Below, in pieces: positions 14,972-29,832 of a DNA stretch of 33,687 nt. Position 1 is the first letter of the stretch; each line of letters opens with the position of its first letter. Below the pieces are notes generated by a model. That model did no database searches. It was not told the DNA's origin and was given only the letters and a program-made list of their open reading frames with translations. This DNA comes from a virus, in the IMG/VR virus record IMGVR_UViG_3300008120_000165, positions 1-33,687 of that record; one strand, given 5' to 3'. A program made the translations under genes and the position numbers.

Positions 14972-15197
14972 AATGTTCGAAATAGCAGGCCATAATGTTA
15001 CTTATGATGATGTTGTAGGTAGAAAGGATGCTTGGTATCAGGAATGGACAATGACTGTAGCACAAAACGATGAATGGAAGGAATGGATGAAAGATTATTT
15101 TAAAAAAGAATGTAAATACTTTCCTAAAATAGCATCACGCGAAGCAGAAATGTGTGCGTTGATGTGGGGATTAAAATTTAGCGACTATGGAGCATGA
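14901..15197 (+). CDS. Hypothetical protein
   Basis: The product has 98 residues. The basic N-terminus (RKPRKKRPTSEE) is followed by a Trp-rich helical body (DAWYQEW, NDEWKEWMKDYF). Similar Trp-rich small proteins occur in other large phages as far as I recall. It overlaps both neighbours (71 and 11 bp). Confidence 0.62.
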   Translation: MTQPRKPRKKRPTSEEIVRTIINKMFEIAGHNVTYDDVVGRKDAWYQEWTMTVAQNDEWKEWMKDYFKKECKYFPKIASREAEMCALMWGLKFSDYGA

Positions 15198-15597
15198 ATT
15201 TAGAGATGCTGAGCATTATGCCTCAACAATCAGAGATATTATTTTAACTACAGAGCCAGAGAATGGGGAAGAACCACTACCTGAAAACTTAGTTAAATAT
15301 TGGGCTGATAATTTATACAATGCTTGTTTAAAAGCATATCATGATTACCTTATAGGTAAACGTGATGATTTTAGATTAACAGATGAAGAATCATATGCTG
15401 AATATGATAAAGCAGGTATTCAATTCACTCAGGAATTAGTTGATAGTATGGTTGATAAAGATTTACTTCAAGTAAGCATATCTCCTGAAGGTGAATTTTT
15501 ATATAGCACAACTGCTAAAGGACAAAAAGCAGCTAAAAAATATGAATTAGATAACAATTTAAATATTAAACGCCGTGGCAGACCAAGAAAAAAATAA
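15187..15597 (+). CDS. Winged-helix-like protein with C-terminal AT-hook
   Basis: The product has 136 residues. Two helical stretches are followed by LVDSMVDKDLLQVSISPEGEFLYSTT, which resembles the wing and recognition part of a winged helix (about residues 79-110). It ends KRRGRPRKK, an AT-hook (GRP core) that binds the minor groove of AT-rich DNA. It could act in regulation or DNA packing. Confidence 0.65.
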   Translation: MEHEFRDAEHYASTIRDIILTTEPENGEEPLPENLVKYWADNLYNACLKAYHDYLIGKRDDFRLTDEESYAEYDKAGIQFTQELVDSMVDKDLLQVSISPEGEFLYSTTAKGQKAAKKYELDNNLNIKRRGRPRKK

Positions 15598-16042: not shown

Positions 16043-16382
16043 AGAACAAATTGCTCAAGTAGCACACGAAGTAAATAAAGCATATTGCCAAGCAATTGGT
16101 GATTATTCTCAAGTAAGTTGGGCTGATGCTCCTCAATGGCAGAAAGATTCTGCTATTAGTGGAGTTAATTTCCACTTAGAAAATCCCGATAAAGGACCTG
16201 AAGATGCTCATGCTGAATGGGCTAGACATAAAATAGCTGAAGGGTGGAGTTATGGACCTGAGAAAGATGTATTTAAAAAACAACATCCAGCATTAACTGA
16301 ATATAGTAAATTACCTACTGAAATTAAAGCAAAAGATTATTTCTTTAGACAAATAGTTCATAGTTTGAAAAAATTCCTATAA
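16035..16382 (+). CDS. RyR-domain protein
   Basis: The product has 115 residues. IAQVAHEVNKAYCQAIGD, NPDKGPEDAHAEWARHK, and EGWSYGPEKD...HPALTEYSKLP match the RyR domain (ryanodine-receptor repeat) that occurs as a stand-alone protein in many bacteria and phages. The domain is thought to bind a ligand; its job in phages is not settled. The last base of its stop is the first base of the next ATG. Confidence 0.8.
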   Translation: MTKEQIAQVAHEVNKAYCQAIGDYSQVSWADAPQWQKDSAISGVNFHLENPDKGPEDAHAEWARHKIAEGWSYGPEKDVFKKQHPALTEYSKLPTEIKAKDYFFRQIVHSLKKFL

Positions 16383-16792
16383 TGGCAAAACGAGGCAGAC
16401 CAAGTAAGTATCAAAAACCAATCCATAAATTTAATGGAGGGAGAGGTGCTACGTTATGCCATGAGTGTAGAGTAATTATTAGTGAAGGTTTTACTGATGA
16501 TTTGTATTGCGAAGACCATGGTGGTAAACCAAAATGGACCTATAAATTAGTTAGGGAAAGAGATGGCTTAACTAAACATGCCAAGGTGATTAAGTGGGTA
16601 GAATGGAATGATGCATATGGAACAGCAGCTGCTTCTCATGATGAACCTAAAGTTGGTTATAGTTTAATTACTGATCCAGGTTACTTAACATTCGGTTGGT
16701 TAACAACATCAATAACAGAGATTTTGGAGGACCAAGGATCCTATATTAAATTTAGGACGAAAAATAGTATTTACGAATTATATAAGCGATGA
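16382..16792 (+). CDS. Zinc-finger protein with N-terminal AT-hook
   Basis: The product has 136 residues. It opens with MAKRGRPSKYQK, an AT-hook-like GRP motif, followed by CHECRVIISE...YCEDHG (about residues 26-46), a CxxC...CxxH zinc site. The C-terminal half is strand-rich with several Trp. It is probably DNA-bound. It overlaps the next small gene by 4 bp. Confidence 0.65.
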   Translation: MAKRGRPSKYQKPIHKFNGGRGATLCHECRVIISEGFTDDLYCEDHGGKPKWTYKLVRERDGLTKHAKVIKWVEWNDAYGTAAASHDEPKVGYSLITDPGYLTFGWLTTSITEILEDQGSYIKFRTKNSIYELYKR

Positions 16793-22526: not shown

Positions 22527-22733
22527 ATGTCAAGTAAAAAAACACAAACAACAGAAGCAACAGCAACACCAACAGTAAAACGTGGTCGTCCTGTAATTGA
22601 AGGATCAGCTCGTCAAGCTCGTTTGGCACGTTGGGAATCACTTAAAGCACAAGGTTTTACCGTACGTGCTGGTCGTCCTAAAGGTAGCACTAAGAAAGCT
22701 ACAGCTGATACTACTGCTACTACAAGTAAGTAA
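22527..22733 (+). CDS. Small AT-hook protein
   Basis: The product has 68 residues. VKRGRPVIEG (about residues 17-26) and RAGRPKGSTKK (about residues 48-58) are two AT-hook-like GRP motifs around a basic helix (RQARLARWESLKAQGF). It should bind AT-rich DNA in the minor groove. It has a strong promoter and a strong terminator, so it is a single-gene, probably abundant product. Confidence 0.72.
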   Translation: MSSKKTQTTEATATPTVKRGRPVIEGSARQARLARWESLKAQGFTVRAGRPKGSTKKATADTTATTSK

Positions 22734-24564: not shown

Positions 24565-25056
24565 ATGAAAGTTATTGAAATCCCCGCTGCTATTGTTCCA
24601 CGTAAAGCATTTCAGCTTAACGATGATGAACAGCATTTAACTGAGTTTAAACCTGGTATTGAAGTGCTTCCTGCACAATATGCTGATAGCGATACCAATA
24701 ATACCCCCGTTTTCTATTTTGTTCAGCGCCACGAACCTAATACTCCGTATTGGAAGGAAGGTGGTTACGAATGTAATGATTCTAATGGTGCCCGTCGCGC
24801 ATTTTACCTTGATTCACTTATTGTACACCCAAAATATTTTAAGCGTAAAGCCAAAGCAAAAGCTATTTTAGAGCGTAAGGGTACAGGTAAGCGAGGTCGT
24901 CCACGTAAAGATCCATCTCAGTTGCAACAACCAAAAGTGTATGTACCAACAGGAGGTAAACGAGGACGTCCCCGTAAAGACCCTAATACATTACAAGCAC
25001 CTAAAGTTTATATCCCAACAGGTGGTAAGCGTGGTCGCCCAAGAAAACAATCGTAA
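24565..25056 (+). CDS. Triple AT-hook protein
   Basis: The product has 163 residues. The first 100 form an unrecognised strand-rich domain (PVFYFVQRHEPNTPYWKEGG). The tail has three AT-hooks, KRGRPRK, at about 109, 134 and 156, spaced by 22-25 residues with near-identical linkers (PTGGKRGRPRK). It should bind several AT tracts at once and could bridge or coat the genome. The linkers show recent internal duplication. Confidence 0.72.
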   Translation: MKVIEIPAAIVPRKAFQLNDDEQHLTEFKPGIEVLPAQYADSDTNNTPVFYFVQRHEPNTPYWKEGGYECNDSNGARRAFYLDSLIVHPKYFKRKAKAKAILERKGTGKRGRPRKDPSQLQQPKVYVPTGGKRGRPRKDPNTLQAPKVYIPTGGKRGRPRKQS

Positions 25057-25992: not shown

Positions 25993-26197
25993 GCATATGT
26001 TAAACAACATTACACTTGAACGTTTTGAGCAAATTGAAAATGAACGTGCTAAAACATTTAATGACCCTGCGTTTATTAAATGGATGAGAAAATTAAAAGT
26101 ATCTCGTTTGGCAACTAATCCTAATGCTATGGAACAAACACGCCGTGCAATGGAGGATTATAATTTTTCAAACTATAAATTTCCTAAAGTTAAATGA
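25985..26197 (+). CDS. Hypothetical basic protein
   Basis: The product has 70 residues, helical and basic (ERFEQIENERAKTFNDP; KWMRKLKVSRLATNP). It overlaps the next gene by ATGA. No family is recognised. Confidence 0.58.
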   Translation: MDKHMLNNITLERFEQIENERAKTFNDPAFIKWMRKLKVSRLATNPNAMEQTRRAMEDYNFSNYKFPKVK

Positions 26198-26697
26198 ACA
26201 AATTCGAACGCATAACGCCTGAACAAGCACACTACTATAAAGTGTTAGATCCTGATAAGTTATCTTCAGAAGAGATATGCCGTAAAGCTACTGCGTTTAC
26301 CCTTACTCCAAGTACTGAACCAGGATGGGATAATTGGGAAGATGTTACTTATTATCAAGAGTCACCTGTTGATGCTGATGGTAACTTAAAACCAACTGAA
26401 TTTGTTTATGTATTAGTAAATAAATCTATTCCTGGGATGGTTAAAATAGGAATGACAGTACGTGATGTAGATGAACGTGCTAAAGAAATATCTGGTGCTA
26501 CTGGTGTACCAACACCTTGGGTTCCTGTTTATTCATTTCAATGTTTTAATTCATATAAATTAGAACAGGAAATACATTCTTATCTTGATGCTATTCGTGT
26601 TAATGCAAATAGAGAAATGTTTGCTATGTCATCTATAGATGCAATCAAAATTGTTAAACAATTAGGAGAAAAATATACTCAATATGAACCCAGCTAA
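26194..26697 (+). CDS. T5orf172/Mug113-type GIY-YIG nuclease
   Basis: The product has 167 residues. FVYVLVNKSIPGMVKIGMT (about residues 68-86) is the GIY-YIG strand pair in its T5orf172 form (YVL...KIG.T). ERAKEISGATGVPTPWVPV supplies the following Arg-containing helix, and LEQEIHSYLDAIRVNANREMF the conserved Glu-His and later strand. The first 65 residues are a separate, acidic, unrecognised part. It may be a mobile-type or phage-defence nuclease. Confidence 0.8.
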   Translation: MNKFERITPEQAHYYKVLDPDKLSSEEICRKATAFTLTPSTEPGWDNWEDVTYYQESPVDADGNLKPTEFVYVLVNKSIPGMVKIGMTVRDVDERAKEISGATGVPTPWVPVYSFQCFNSYKLEQEIHSYLDAIRVNANREMFAMSSIDAIKIVKQLGEKYTQYEPS

Positions 26698-26924: not shown

Positions 26925-27083
26925 ATGATAATTATTTTTTTCGCATATATGATGATTGGGTGTTTAGTAATTTGTGTTGAATTAGAAAATGCTCCCACAT
27001 ATGATGAAGTAAATGATAAATTCATTTATAAAGAGTGGTACACCATATTTGGAATTAAGATAAAAAGAAATAAGAAAAAATAG
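26925..27083 (+). CDS. Small single-pass membrane protein
   Basis: The product has 52 residues from the ATG at 26925. Residues 2-18 are hydrophobic (IIIFFAYMMIGCLVICV), followed by a charged tail ending KIKRNKKK. A longer in-frame start overlaps the previous gene and is less likely. It is the last gene before the ncRNA region. Confidence 0.52.
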   Translation: MIIIFFAYMMIGCLVICVELENAPTYDEVNDKFIYKEWYTIFGIKIKRNKKK

Positions 27084-27102
27084 CGTTTTTGGATATTTTT
27101 AT

Positions 27103-27111
27103 ATATTTATA
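27103..27111 (+). promoter_or_regulatory. ATATTTAT box before the ncRNA
   Basis: ATATTTATA within TATATATTTATAG. It is the best candidate promoter box for the RNA at about 27112-27450. Read on the other strand it equals TATAAATAT, the T4 late promoter form, but no genes lie on that side. Confidence 0.4.
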
Positions 27112-27450
27112 GACGTATTAAAAGATCTTTGTGGCCGAACAAGCGGTTGAGAGCTGCTAAGGCACTGGCAAGGTAGTTGAAAAGCTACTGAGTTGGGTTT
27201 CACAGACGAGTGAGTTAAAACCACCATCATCAAGGGTAGAATGCGCAACCCGAAGGTGCTCTGGATACGCTGAAGTACATTAGTCATGATCTCCGCAGGC
27301 GTTGTTGGTAGTCAAACCAACCTGTTATTAACACTAGAACTGATCATTTTAGTGGGCAGTGGGTGAAAAGGGGCTCGTCCAGGGATTGTAGGTAGTCAGG
27401 ATTCCTACCAAGATTTTAGGGGTGGTTCGCTTAGCGAACCGCCCCTTTTT
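27112..27450 (+). ncRNA. Putative structured non-coding RNA, unknown class
   Basis: A stretch of about 330 nt has no plausible ORF, is richer in G/C than its surroundings, and ends in an intrinsic terminator. It holds several local hairpins: GTAGTT-GAAA-AGCTAC (a GNRA tetraloop, about 27173-27188), TCAC/GTGA, GGGT/ACCC, GTTGGT/ACCAAC (about 27305-27323), CACTA/TAGTG and GTAGG/CCTAC (about 27389-27408). ATGATC and GATCAT could pair at longer range. GGTAGTCA occurs in two hairpins. It does not match what I know of tmRNA, RNase P RNA, 6S RNA, SRP RNA or group I/II introns. The exact 5' end is unknown. Confidence 0.65.
27419..27450 (+). terminator. Strong intrinsic terminator of the ncRNA
   Basis: GGGGTGGTTCGC-TTA-GCGAACCGCCCC forms a 12-bp stem with one G-T pair, followed by TTTTT. 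It is the strongest terminator in the window. Confidence 0.92.
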
Positions 27451-27459
27451 ATATTTATC
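27451..27459 (+). promoter_or_regulatory. ATATTTAT box before 27467
   Basis: ATATTTATC follows the terminator directly and ends 7 nt before the ATG. It may start the exported-protein operon. Confidence 0.38.
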
Positions 27460-27466
27460 CACGACT

Positions 27467-27943
27467 ATGAAAACCATTTTTACCATTATACTGATATCAG
27501 TATGTAGCTTGCTATATGCTCAACCTACTTCGGTGTATGTTGGTACTGTTACTAATAAGGTAAAGATTGGTCCTTTAACTGGTAATAAAAATCTAGCATT
27601 TGGTATTAAAAATATTGCTGAGGAAGCAATTTTAGATAAAGGATATGATTTGAATAATGATAGTTCATCCTTTAGATTAGATTTAGAAATTATATATTTT
27701 GATATACAACAAACAGCTACTGGTGTAAGTGTATTTCATAAAACAGAAAACGAAACAATAATTCGTATAAAAGGTATTTTTTACTCTAATGACAAGAAGC
27801 CAAAAGAATACGTTGCGACAGGTAAGAGTTCTGAAATATCTACCTCAACTATGATAGTCGATGAAGGTGGTGGTTTTAATCAAGCGTCAGCCCGTTCTGC
27901 TCTTAAAAAAACCATTATTAACCTAATCGAAAAACTACTATGA
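27467..27943 (+). CDS. Exported YajG/CsgG-like small protein
   Basis: The product has 158 residues from the ATG at 27467, which gives a clear signal peptide (residues 1-19, IFTIILISVCSLLYAQ). The mature part is strand-rich: LEIIYFDIQQTATGVSVFHK, then IIRIKGIFYSN, then a C-terminal helix (SALKKTIINLIEKLL). This order resembles the YajG-type periplasmic lipoprotein fold, but no lipobox Cys is present after the signal. A link to the CsgG-like protein at 30512 is possible. ATGA overlap with the next gene. Confidence 0.6.
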   Translation: MKTIFTIILISVCSLLYAQPTSVYVGTVTNKVKIGPLTGNKNLAFGIKNIAEEAILDKGYDLNNDSSSFRLDLEIIYFDIQQTATGVSVFHKTENETIIRIKGIFYSNDKKPKEYVATGKSSEISTSTMIVDEGGGFNQASARSALKKTIINLIEKLL

Positions 27944-29832
27944 AAAAACTATTATTAGCATTTGTGCTTTTAATCAGTTATGTAACTACATTTTCTCAAA
28001 CCCCCCAAATTGGACATTTCCAGACTCTAGCTACTGTTAGAAGAGGAGATACATTAGATGTAACTTGGTACTATAGACCAGGTACCCCTGATATTCGTAC
28101 ATTCCAAGTTGATTGGCAATATAAGAAAACATTATTAACTTATATCTCAACTACAGTTGATGCTTCAGTAAACGGAATGACTCCCGCTGTAAGCTATAAA
28201 ACTTGGGATAACTACAAGTATAATAATTATTCAAATGGTACTTATACCTATTCAGCCAATACTGATTGGACTGTAGGTCGTAACTACTTAGTATTATCAA
28301 GTGGATCAACTATTGGCTCTAACGGCTATATTATCCACAACAAATATAAAATCAATGCTGTAGCCCCAAACTACGTATCAGATACAATTACTGTGAACTG
28401 GGCTCGTATGTTTGATGTTAATGGTATTACCATTGGCGATAACGTAGCCCAATTAACTAACCAAAAATTAGCTATCAAGTTATTAGGTAACTTAACTTTA
28501 TCAGGTAAAGTATGGTTAGGCCCTCAAATGGCTTTAAAACCAGTAGTATGGTGTTATCAAGCAAATAACAACGCATTTATTGATTCAGTAACTGTAAATA
28601 CAGATGGTACTTATACTTTAGATAACATTGATGAAAATACAAGATACAAACTTGATGTTAAATTCCCCTCACCTCTTGCTACTATTAGAGATAATGCTGT
28701 AACAATAGCTGATGCCGTTAAAACGTATGATGAATATACTATTACAGATGTTAACCAAACATTTAGTAGAAACTATTTAAGAAATGGATTAGCATATTTA
28801 ATTGCTGATGTTAACAAAACAGGTGCTTTAGATGGTGGTGATGCATATTCAATTTACGCCTCAGTATCAGGTTTGAAACCAATTGATACAACTAAATTAA
28901 TTAATGTATTTAAAAAGAATACTTTTGATTCATTAGCATTAGGTGCTAGTCAATGGACTGATTGGCCTAGTTATATTAACGGTGTAACTCATATCTTTGA
29001 TAGTGTTGGTACAGTTAACTTAACAGGTGTAGATATTAAATACTTTATTTTAGGTGATGTTGATAGAACACATTCATCTCCAGTTTATAATGCAAACGGA
29101 GATTTAGTAGCTAGAGCAAATTATATTGGTAATTTAGATATTAATATTCCAAATGTAACTGCTCCTACTGGTCAAGCCATGTATGCTAATTTTAATATGA
29201 ATACTAATGGCTTAAAAAATGATGGTCTTCAATTTGAGATGAAATATGATCCTACTAAAGTTAAATTTGAGGAAATTATCTCTAATATCCAAGGGCCATG
29301 GTTACAATACTTAACCCACGATGATGCTAATGGTATTATTCGCTTTGGTGGAATGAATAACCAAATAAAAGGTTCGTTAGTTGGTAATGTAACACCTTTT
29401 AAATTAAAGTTTTCTCCAATTGGAAATAATGAAATAATGACTAACGTATATGTTAGACGTTTAATGGATGCCAGTGATAGAAATGGAGATCATTTTAATA
29501 TTAATTTACAATCTGATTATGTAGTATTAGCTACAAGACAAGCAACCTTACCAACATCTGAAGGTGAAATTACAGCTACAATTCGTCCAAACCCAACAAG
29601 TGGATTTTTTGAATTAGTAGTAGTATTTCCTAAAGCAAATATGACTTCATTAGCTACAGTTTATGATGTTACAGGACGTAAAATAAAAGAAATAGGTAAA
29701 ATACAAAACGATGATTATGTAACAACAGTAGTTAGACAAGTTGATTTAACATCAGCTGCTAATGGACGTTACTTATTAGTATTAGATAATGAAAATCAAA
29801 AACGTTTAGCAAAACAATTTATTAAAATTTAA
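27940..29832 (+). CDS. Large secreted protein with cohesin/dockerin-like parts and T9SS-type sorting tail
   Basis: The product has 630 residues. A signal peptide (1-19, LLLAFVLLISYVTTFS) is followed by a cohesin-like strand region. Two calcium-loop-like segments follow, LIADVNKTGALDGGDAYSIY (about 285-304) and FILGDVDRTHSSPVYNANGD (about 367-386), similar to dockerin loops. Another cohesin-like region covers about 410-530 (LQFEMKYDPTKVKFEEI). The last 80 residues, IRPNPTSGFFELVVVF, VYDVTGRKIKEIG and GRYLLVLDNENQ...KQFIKI, match the type A sorting domain recognised by the Bacteroidetes type IX secretion system. It should reach the host surface. Confidence 0.75.
   Translation: MKKLLLAFVLLISYVTTFSQTPQIGHFQTLATVRRGDTLDVTWYYRPGTPDIRTFQVDWQYKKTLLTYISTTVDASVNGMTPAVSYKTWDNYKYNNYSNGTYTYSANTDWTVGRNYLVLSSGSTIGSNGYIIHNKYKINAVAPNYVSDTITVNWARMFDVNGITIGDNVAQLTNQKLAIKLLGNLTLSGKVWLGPQMALKPVVWCYQANNNAFIDSVTVNTDGTYTLDNIDENTRYKLDVKFPSPLATIRDNAVTIADAVKTYDEYTITDVNQTFSRNYLRNGLAYLIADVNKTGALDGGDAYSIYASVSGLKPIDTTKLINVFKKNTFDSLALGASQWTDWPSYINGVTHIFDSVGTVNLTGVDIKYFILGDVDRTHSSPVYNANGDLVARANYIGNLDINIPNVTAPTGQAMYANFNMNTNGLKNDGLQFEMKYDPTKVKFEEIISNIQGPWLQYLTHDDANGIIRFGGMNNQIKGSLVGNVTPFKLKFSPIGNNEIMTNVYVRRLMDASDRNGDHFNINLQSDYVVLATRQATLPTSEGEITATIRPNPTSGFFELVVVFPKANMTSLATVYDVTGRKIKEIGKIQNDDYVTTVVRQVDLTSAANGRYLLVLDNENQKRLAKQFIKI

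Follow-up and report, generated by a model that had tools for sequence, protein, structure and literature searches.

The stretch analyzed here (the window) is a 33,687-base IMG/VR virus record, in which the gap between an open reading frame (ORF) ending at 27083 and another starting near 27467 raises the question of what it encodes. The initial annotation had proposed an unknown structured RNA without a coding frame. No plausible coding frame was found in the gap, and the 62-aa minus-strand ORF located there was regarded as mechanical; relatives of the RNA differ by indels and paired changes. The gap encodes an RNA with the following features, all on the plus strand.

27102–27111 (+): box TATATTTATA, a possible promoter element directly upstream of the RNA
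27120–27417 (+): structured RNA core from the P1 5′ strand to the P1 3′ strand, about 300 nt
27122–27129 (+): P1 outer helix, AAGAUCUU pairing with AAGAUUUU at 27410–27417 (flank-pair shuffle test)
27131–27163 (+): element GUGGCCGAACAA with P2 and UAAGGC, common to manA (alignment of relatives, pair count, manA alignment)
27134–27136/27161–27163 and 27142–27148/27152–27158 (+): strands of P2
27166–27195 (+): P3 hairpin with a GAAA tetraloop at 27179–27182 (pair-count helices 3 and 4, fold)
27205–27211 (+): P4 long-range helix, GACGAGU pairing with GCUCGUC at 27373–27379 (pair-count helix 5)
27234–27251 (+): P5 hairpin GGGU/ACCC, with the loop palindrome UGCGCA at 27242–27247 (loop 1, putatively self-kissing)
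27267–27302 (+): P6 helix (27267–27271/27298–27302) with a variable loop and conserved GAUCUYYGCA (pair-count helix 11)
27304–27321 (+): P7 hairpin GUUGG-UAGUCAAA-CCAAC, an internal echo of the 3′ hairpin (pair-count helix 12, 100% paired)
27322–27359 (+): P8 helix (27322–27326/27355–27359 and 27332–27338/27348–27354)
27341–27346 (+): P8 loop palindrome UGAUCA (loop 2, putatively self-kissing)
27359–27373 (+): GUGGGUGAAAAGGGG, where the divergent subtype carries GUGRNYGAAUAA a second time (alignments)
27388–27408 (+): P9 3′ hairpin GUAGG-UAGUCAGGAUU-CCUAC, common to manA (pair-count helix 16)
27418–27451 (+): intrinsic terminator of the RNA gene (fold)

For positions 27110–27455, a span that includes the terminator hairpin, the minimum free energy was −108.3 kcal/mol (z = −2.0), and thermodynamics alone was weak evidence for a structured RNA. 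The decisive evidence was comparative. For an explicit pair count, 21 distinct window-type sequences were aligned, and six loop pairs were added to the helix pairs. In this alignment, 97.4% of the cells were paired, and both-sided (compensatory) changes were observed in 46 of the 71 pairs. The covariation score was 0.566 compared with 0.240 for shuffled data, a value reached by none of the 500 shuffles, and pairing fell to 32–44% when the partners were slid by 1–3 columns. RNAalifold on 21 window-type sequences returned 65 pairs, 43 of them with compensatory changes. P1 was tested apart because the alignment could not register the outer helix; 36 distinct flank pairs gave a mean helix score of 14.67 compared with 10.07 for shuffled partners (0 of 2000 shuffles). 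As many members are related, the independent evidence is smaller than these sequence counts. A real, conserved folded RNA in the gap was thereby confirmed, and covariation showed a compact fold with P1, a manA-like core, and the long-range P4. The possible long-range pairing of the initial annotation is P4, which covaried strongly among the 21 relatives (both-sided changes in six of seven pairs), and its GAAA-loop hairpin is P3. Its intrinsic terminator was also recovered (27418–27446, z = −7.4), with 13 bp rather than 12 and a U-tail.

The relatives span two subtypes. A search pattern for the 3′ hairpin, derived from the manA alignment, retrieved 18 viral loci, comprising canonical manA, window-type RNAs, and a second divergent type; further sequence patterns enlarged the set, and more than 40 distinct relatives were obtained from viral metagenomes. 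Four pattern loci (L007, L012, L014, and L017) were canonical manA, as confirmed by the Rfam search, and four others lacking the 5′ element (L005, L010, L020, and L021) were taken as chance matches. A window-type profile matched the second type from end to end (L051, 7e-19; L092, 1e-16; L015, 2e-15). The covariance model R1, built from 21 close (window-type) relatives with the second-type members excluded, matched the window RNA at 27114–27422 with 320 bits and every second-type member tested over its full length with 58–131 bits. In 24 phage records of 18–735 kb, R1 detected a single copy per record. When the window RNA and those of L041, L028, and L016 were used as queries against 50,697 phage records, no convincing match was obtained, so that the close subtype was not detected in that collection; the divergent subtype was found there, in Lak phages. 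The second subtype is present in Prevotella Lak megaphages and in a 735-kb phage. Two members with enlarged loops were noted: L059 (1802–2144), which has extra sequence inserted ahead of loop 1 and the palindrome UGAUCA in both of its loops, and L075 (1311–1661), which has a GCGC-containing insertion at loop 2.

The covariance-model search that had been proposed for this RNA returned no Rfam 15 family at the gathering threshold. In the E-value mode, suhB, L20_leader, sbrA, sraA, mir-128, and others were rejected, as their matches covered little beyond the terminator hairpin. The covariance models of GOLLD and ROOL had no match in the window or the relatives, and neither ARAGORN nor Rfam detected a tRNA-like domain at 27.1–27.45 kb. 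No earlier description of the RNA was found in the open-licence literature searched. Because 98% of the Breaker/Weinberg alignments are already in Rfam (PMC7779021), the absence of this RNA from Rfam 15 makes an earlier description unlikely, though possible. The best reading is that the RNA was previously uncatalogued and represents a new phage RNA family.

The lack of a recognizable class had been stated beforehand and holds at the family threshold; what was missed is that the core resembles a distant form of manA. The manA model (RF01745) aligned end to end in the window in the Rfam E-value mode with 23.6 bits, against a gathering threshold of 55.2. It gave in-register matches in five of 10 further loci (24–31 bits) and in seven of 21 whole phage records (E of 9e-9 to 5e-4). 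No match in the 21 records exceeded 55.2, and in the matched records manA appeared nowhere else at E ≤ 0.001; its scores at the RNA were 19–33 bits, all below the cut-off. The conserved manA core is present as P1, the P2 element GUGACUGAAUAA...UAAGG, and the 3′ hairpin GUGGG-UAnnCAGnAWU-CCCAC. Both RNAs have P1, the GUGRCYGAAYAA element with P2 (with an internal loop) and UAAGG, and a 3′ hairpin with the 11-nt loop UANNCAGNAWU, whereas this RNA is about 120 nt longer, with P4–P8 and two palindromic loops. In the reverse direction, R1 did not match canonical manA (L007, L012, L014, and L017) up to E = 1. The manA motif is carried by T4-like cyanophages (PMC2864571). In contrast to the 5′ UTR position of manA, a terminator follows the window RNA and relatives lie in tRNA arrays, making it a tRNA-array gene or a gene with its own terminator. 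These sub-threshold but reproducible matches suggest distant kinship of the core with manA, not membership.

Repeats were also observed within the RNA. The repeated motifs are that of the 5′ element (GUGGCYGAAYAA) and that of the 3′ hairpin (GGUANNCAGNAWUCC); in the divergent subtype, a GUGRNYGAAUAA-like sequence occurs again after P8 (GAAUGA in one member), and the hairpin GGUANNCANNCC precedes P8 in most members of both subtypes. Read from the junction, the order of hairpin, helix, and GUG element is identical around P1 and around P8, from which we infer an approximate two-module design.

The upstream box reported in the initial annotation is TATATTTATA, of which no other exact copy exists in the window. 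In L031, L041, L047, L048, and L027, the same or a nearly identical box precedes the RNA by 4–57 nt. A general promoter role of TATATTTATA is unproven, as copies with one mismatch were not enriched in the window. The sequence TATATTTATC recurs at 27450–27459, ahead of the next operon. The TATATTTATA and TATATTTATC boxes are possibly a phage-specific promoter element.

The source phage was characterized from its other genes. A 630-aa exported protein (27940–29832) ends in a Por_Secre tail (type IX secretion) and has homologues in Flavobacterium phages, with distant similarity to a cohesin-domain protein of the Flavobacterium phage immuto; the tail and these homologues point to a probable Bacteroidota host. 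The exported protein is shared with phage immuto, in which R1 found no match. A T5orf172 (GIY-YIG-like) gene is located at 26194–26697, and its relatives occur within a few kb of the RNA in L003, L026, L039, and L040. A 163-aa ORF (24565–25056) contains three GKRGRPRK repeats (AT-hook like), and similar GRP motifs are found in the ORFs at 15187–15597, 16382–16792, and 22527–22733, which suggests that this one phage may encode several small DNA-binding proteins.

Many large Bacteroidota phages carry a single copy of the RNA, in most cases within a tRNA array. Among 46 members, a tRNA or tmRNA was predicted within 100 nt of the RNA in 28, and in a 29th (L031) Rfam matched a tmRNA at a distance of 11 nt; all tRNAs and tmRNAs within 1.5 kb were on the same strand as the RNA. 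In six members (L003, L004, L022, L025, L028, and L032), the RNA has a tRNA on each flank, both less than 15 nt away. It directly follows a phage tmRNA in L042, L046, L068, L072, and L031, and precedes one in L016. Members without a tRNA behind the RNA often have a terminator there; terminators right after the RNA were detected in 11 of the 46 members, the window included. Some members are kilobases from any tRNA, including the window, the sole tRNA of which (tRNA-Ser) is 3.8 kb from the RNA. The same-strand position in tRNA arrays and the terminators indicate the behavior of a stable RNA gene rather than an operon leader. In L002 and L132, ARAGORN predicted tRNA-Pyl genes approximately 0.9–1.1 kb downstream of the second-subtype RNA. 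A tRNA-Pyl normally has a CUA anticodon; these genes would fit a recoded TAG in such phages. The tRNA/tmRNA association was missed by the initial annotation, as were two palindromic loops that switch sequence.

Loop 1 occurs as UGCGCA, UGUACA, UGGCCA, or UGAUCA, with the central tetramers GCGC, GUAC, GGCC, and GAUC and the wobble forms GCGU, GGUC, and GGCU. Loop 2 occurs as UGAUCA, UAGCUA, UAAUUA, or UCAUGA, with GAUC, AGCU, AAUU, CAUG, or GGCU as the central tetramer. The central tetramer of loop 1 was self-complementary in all 42 members when wobble pairs were allowed (the GCGU subgroup depends on G–U pairs), and loop 2 was self-complementary in 40 of 42, the exceptions being L015, which is not self-complementary, and L075, in which the insertion disrupts the loop. 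Lak-A1 and Lak-B1, additional to the 40 of 42, have CAUG in loop 2. On a tree from which the loop positions had been excluded, approximately 14 changes were counted for loop 1 and about seven for loop 2. The two central bases are adjacent and cannot pair within one chain; thus, the loop covariation suggests pairing between two copies, and symmetric kissing between RNA copies is the best reading of what would maintain the palindromes. The same argument was applied to OLE L9.3 and GOLLD L21a, for which cryo-EM visualized the contacts (PMC12286853). Cross-pairing between the two loops was rejected, as the two palindromes differ and are not mutually complementary; thus, each loop should form its own twofold interface. 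The palindromes could instead pair with another palindromic partner rather than with themselves.

We consider it probable (about 0.62) that the locus is an independent phage gene for a stable, trans-acting RNA of approximately 300 nt, the copies of which join via the two self-complementary loops. In the window phage, the gene ends in a dedicated terminator and probably starts from a promoter of its own; in relatives, the RNA would be transcribed and processed within tRNA/tmRNA precursors, with P1 as its closing helix. It folds compactly through P1, the manA-like core, and P4, and the switching palindromes suggest that loop 1 in P5 and loop 2 in P8 would each act as a twofold-symmetric kissing interface. 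Two distinct symmetric interfaces per molecule could yield rings, chains, or cages like those formed by GOLLD and ROOL. The regular proximity to tRNAs and tmRNA suggests that such a particle may act on the translation side of infection, and, speculatively, it could hold or protect tRNAs or ribosomes.

GOLLD and ROOL are, like this RNA, phage-encoded near tRNA arrays, and they form homo-oligomers via kissing loops; the two loops with switching palindromes are candidates for such contacts here. GOLLD L21a switches palindromes as the present loops do (PMC12286853), and the sizes differ (300 nt compared with approximately 660 and more than 800 nt for GOLLD/ROOL). OLE has a symmetric dimer loop switching among GGCC, GAUC, and AGCU (PMC12286853), tetramers that are also found here, whereas OLE is bacterial and has protein partners, and an Rfam match to OLE is absent here. 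The stable RNAs C and D of T4 are uncharacterized RNAs of a phage tRNA array, a setting similar to the present one, but they are 139 and 119 nt long; identity with T4 rnaC/rnaD was rejected, as no motif is held in common and R1 had no match in the T4 tRNA region.

Four other explanations were weighed against an independent trans-acting gene. A manA-like cis-regulatory leader (a riboswitch candidate) controlling the downstream exported-protein operon would account for the in-register manA matches in the window and several relatives and for the common P1, P2, and 3′ hairpin; the operon begins at 27467 in the window, and the operon after the RNA in L041 encodes 85–92% identical proteins. However, a strong terminator stands between the RNA and the operon, most relatives are in tRNA arrays without a downstream coding start, and the next gene changes while the RNA is conserved, which makes a leader improbable. 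The position ahead of this operon, which the initial annotation had emphasized, is correct for the window but not general among relatives. The roles it had proposed (a switch between gene sets, packaging, or a decoy) found no support here. For packaging, a phi29-like RNA would agree with phage encoding, an approximately suitable size range, and the possible kissing loops. The phi29 pRNA uses two different loops that are complementary to each other, whereas each loop here is self-complementary and does not match its counterpart, and we give this explanation very little credence.

A regulatory or sponge RNA, in which the palindromic loops serve as seeds for host or phage RNAs or for another palindrome-sharing RNA, is compatible with exposed conserved loops and a single copy per phage. 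Its partner would have to switch in step, and a hetero-partner does not require the self-complementarity kept through the loop switches, so we judge it unlikely. No better placed is a monomer or dimer that binds a phage or host translation or ribosome-rescue protein as a tmRNA/tRNA companion, or that acts as a decoy for defence nucleases directed at tRNA, with kissing as a packing detail; the co-location with tRNAs and tmRNA speaks for it, and the members far from any tRNA and the lack of a tRNA-like domain in the ARAGORN prediction speak against it.

RNA-only homo-oligomers have been reported for only three large natural RNAs in the cryo-EM study (PMC12286853). Taking the trans-acting, self-joining RNA one step further, it is conceivable, at somewhat below even odds in our estimate, that it defines a new natural class of RNA-only particles, in which a 300-nt phage RNA (at most half the size of ROOL) would use two different self-complementary loops to assemble into a closed cage or ring in phages whose sizes range from approximately 120 kb up to those of the Lak megaphages and the 735-kb megaphage. 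Cyanophage manA would then be a shorter version of this RNA that has been misclassified as a riboswitch candidate. The finding would add a compact RNA, akin in kind to GOLLD and ROOL, to Bacteroidota phages and megaphages, where it is single-copy and under strong structural selection. At 300 nt, it would be a tractable model for studying the function of such RNAs next to tRNA arrays. In addition, manA, an orphan motif in Rfam, would become part of a wider superfamily of phage RNAs, and its cis-regulatory label would be called into question.
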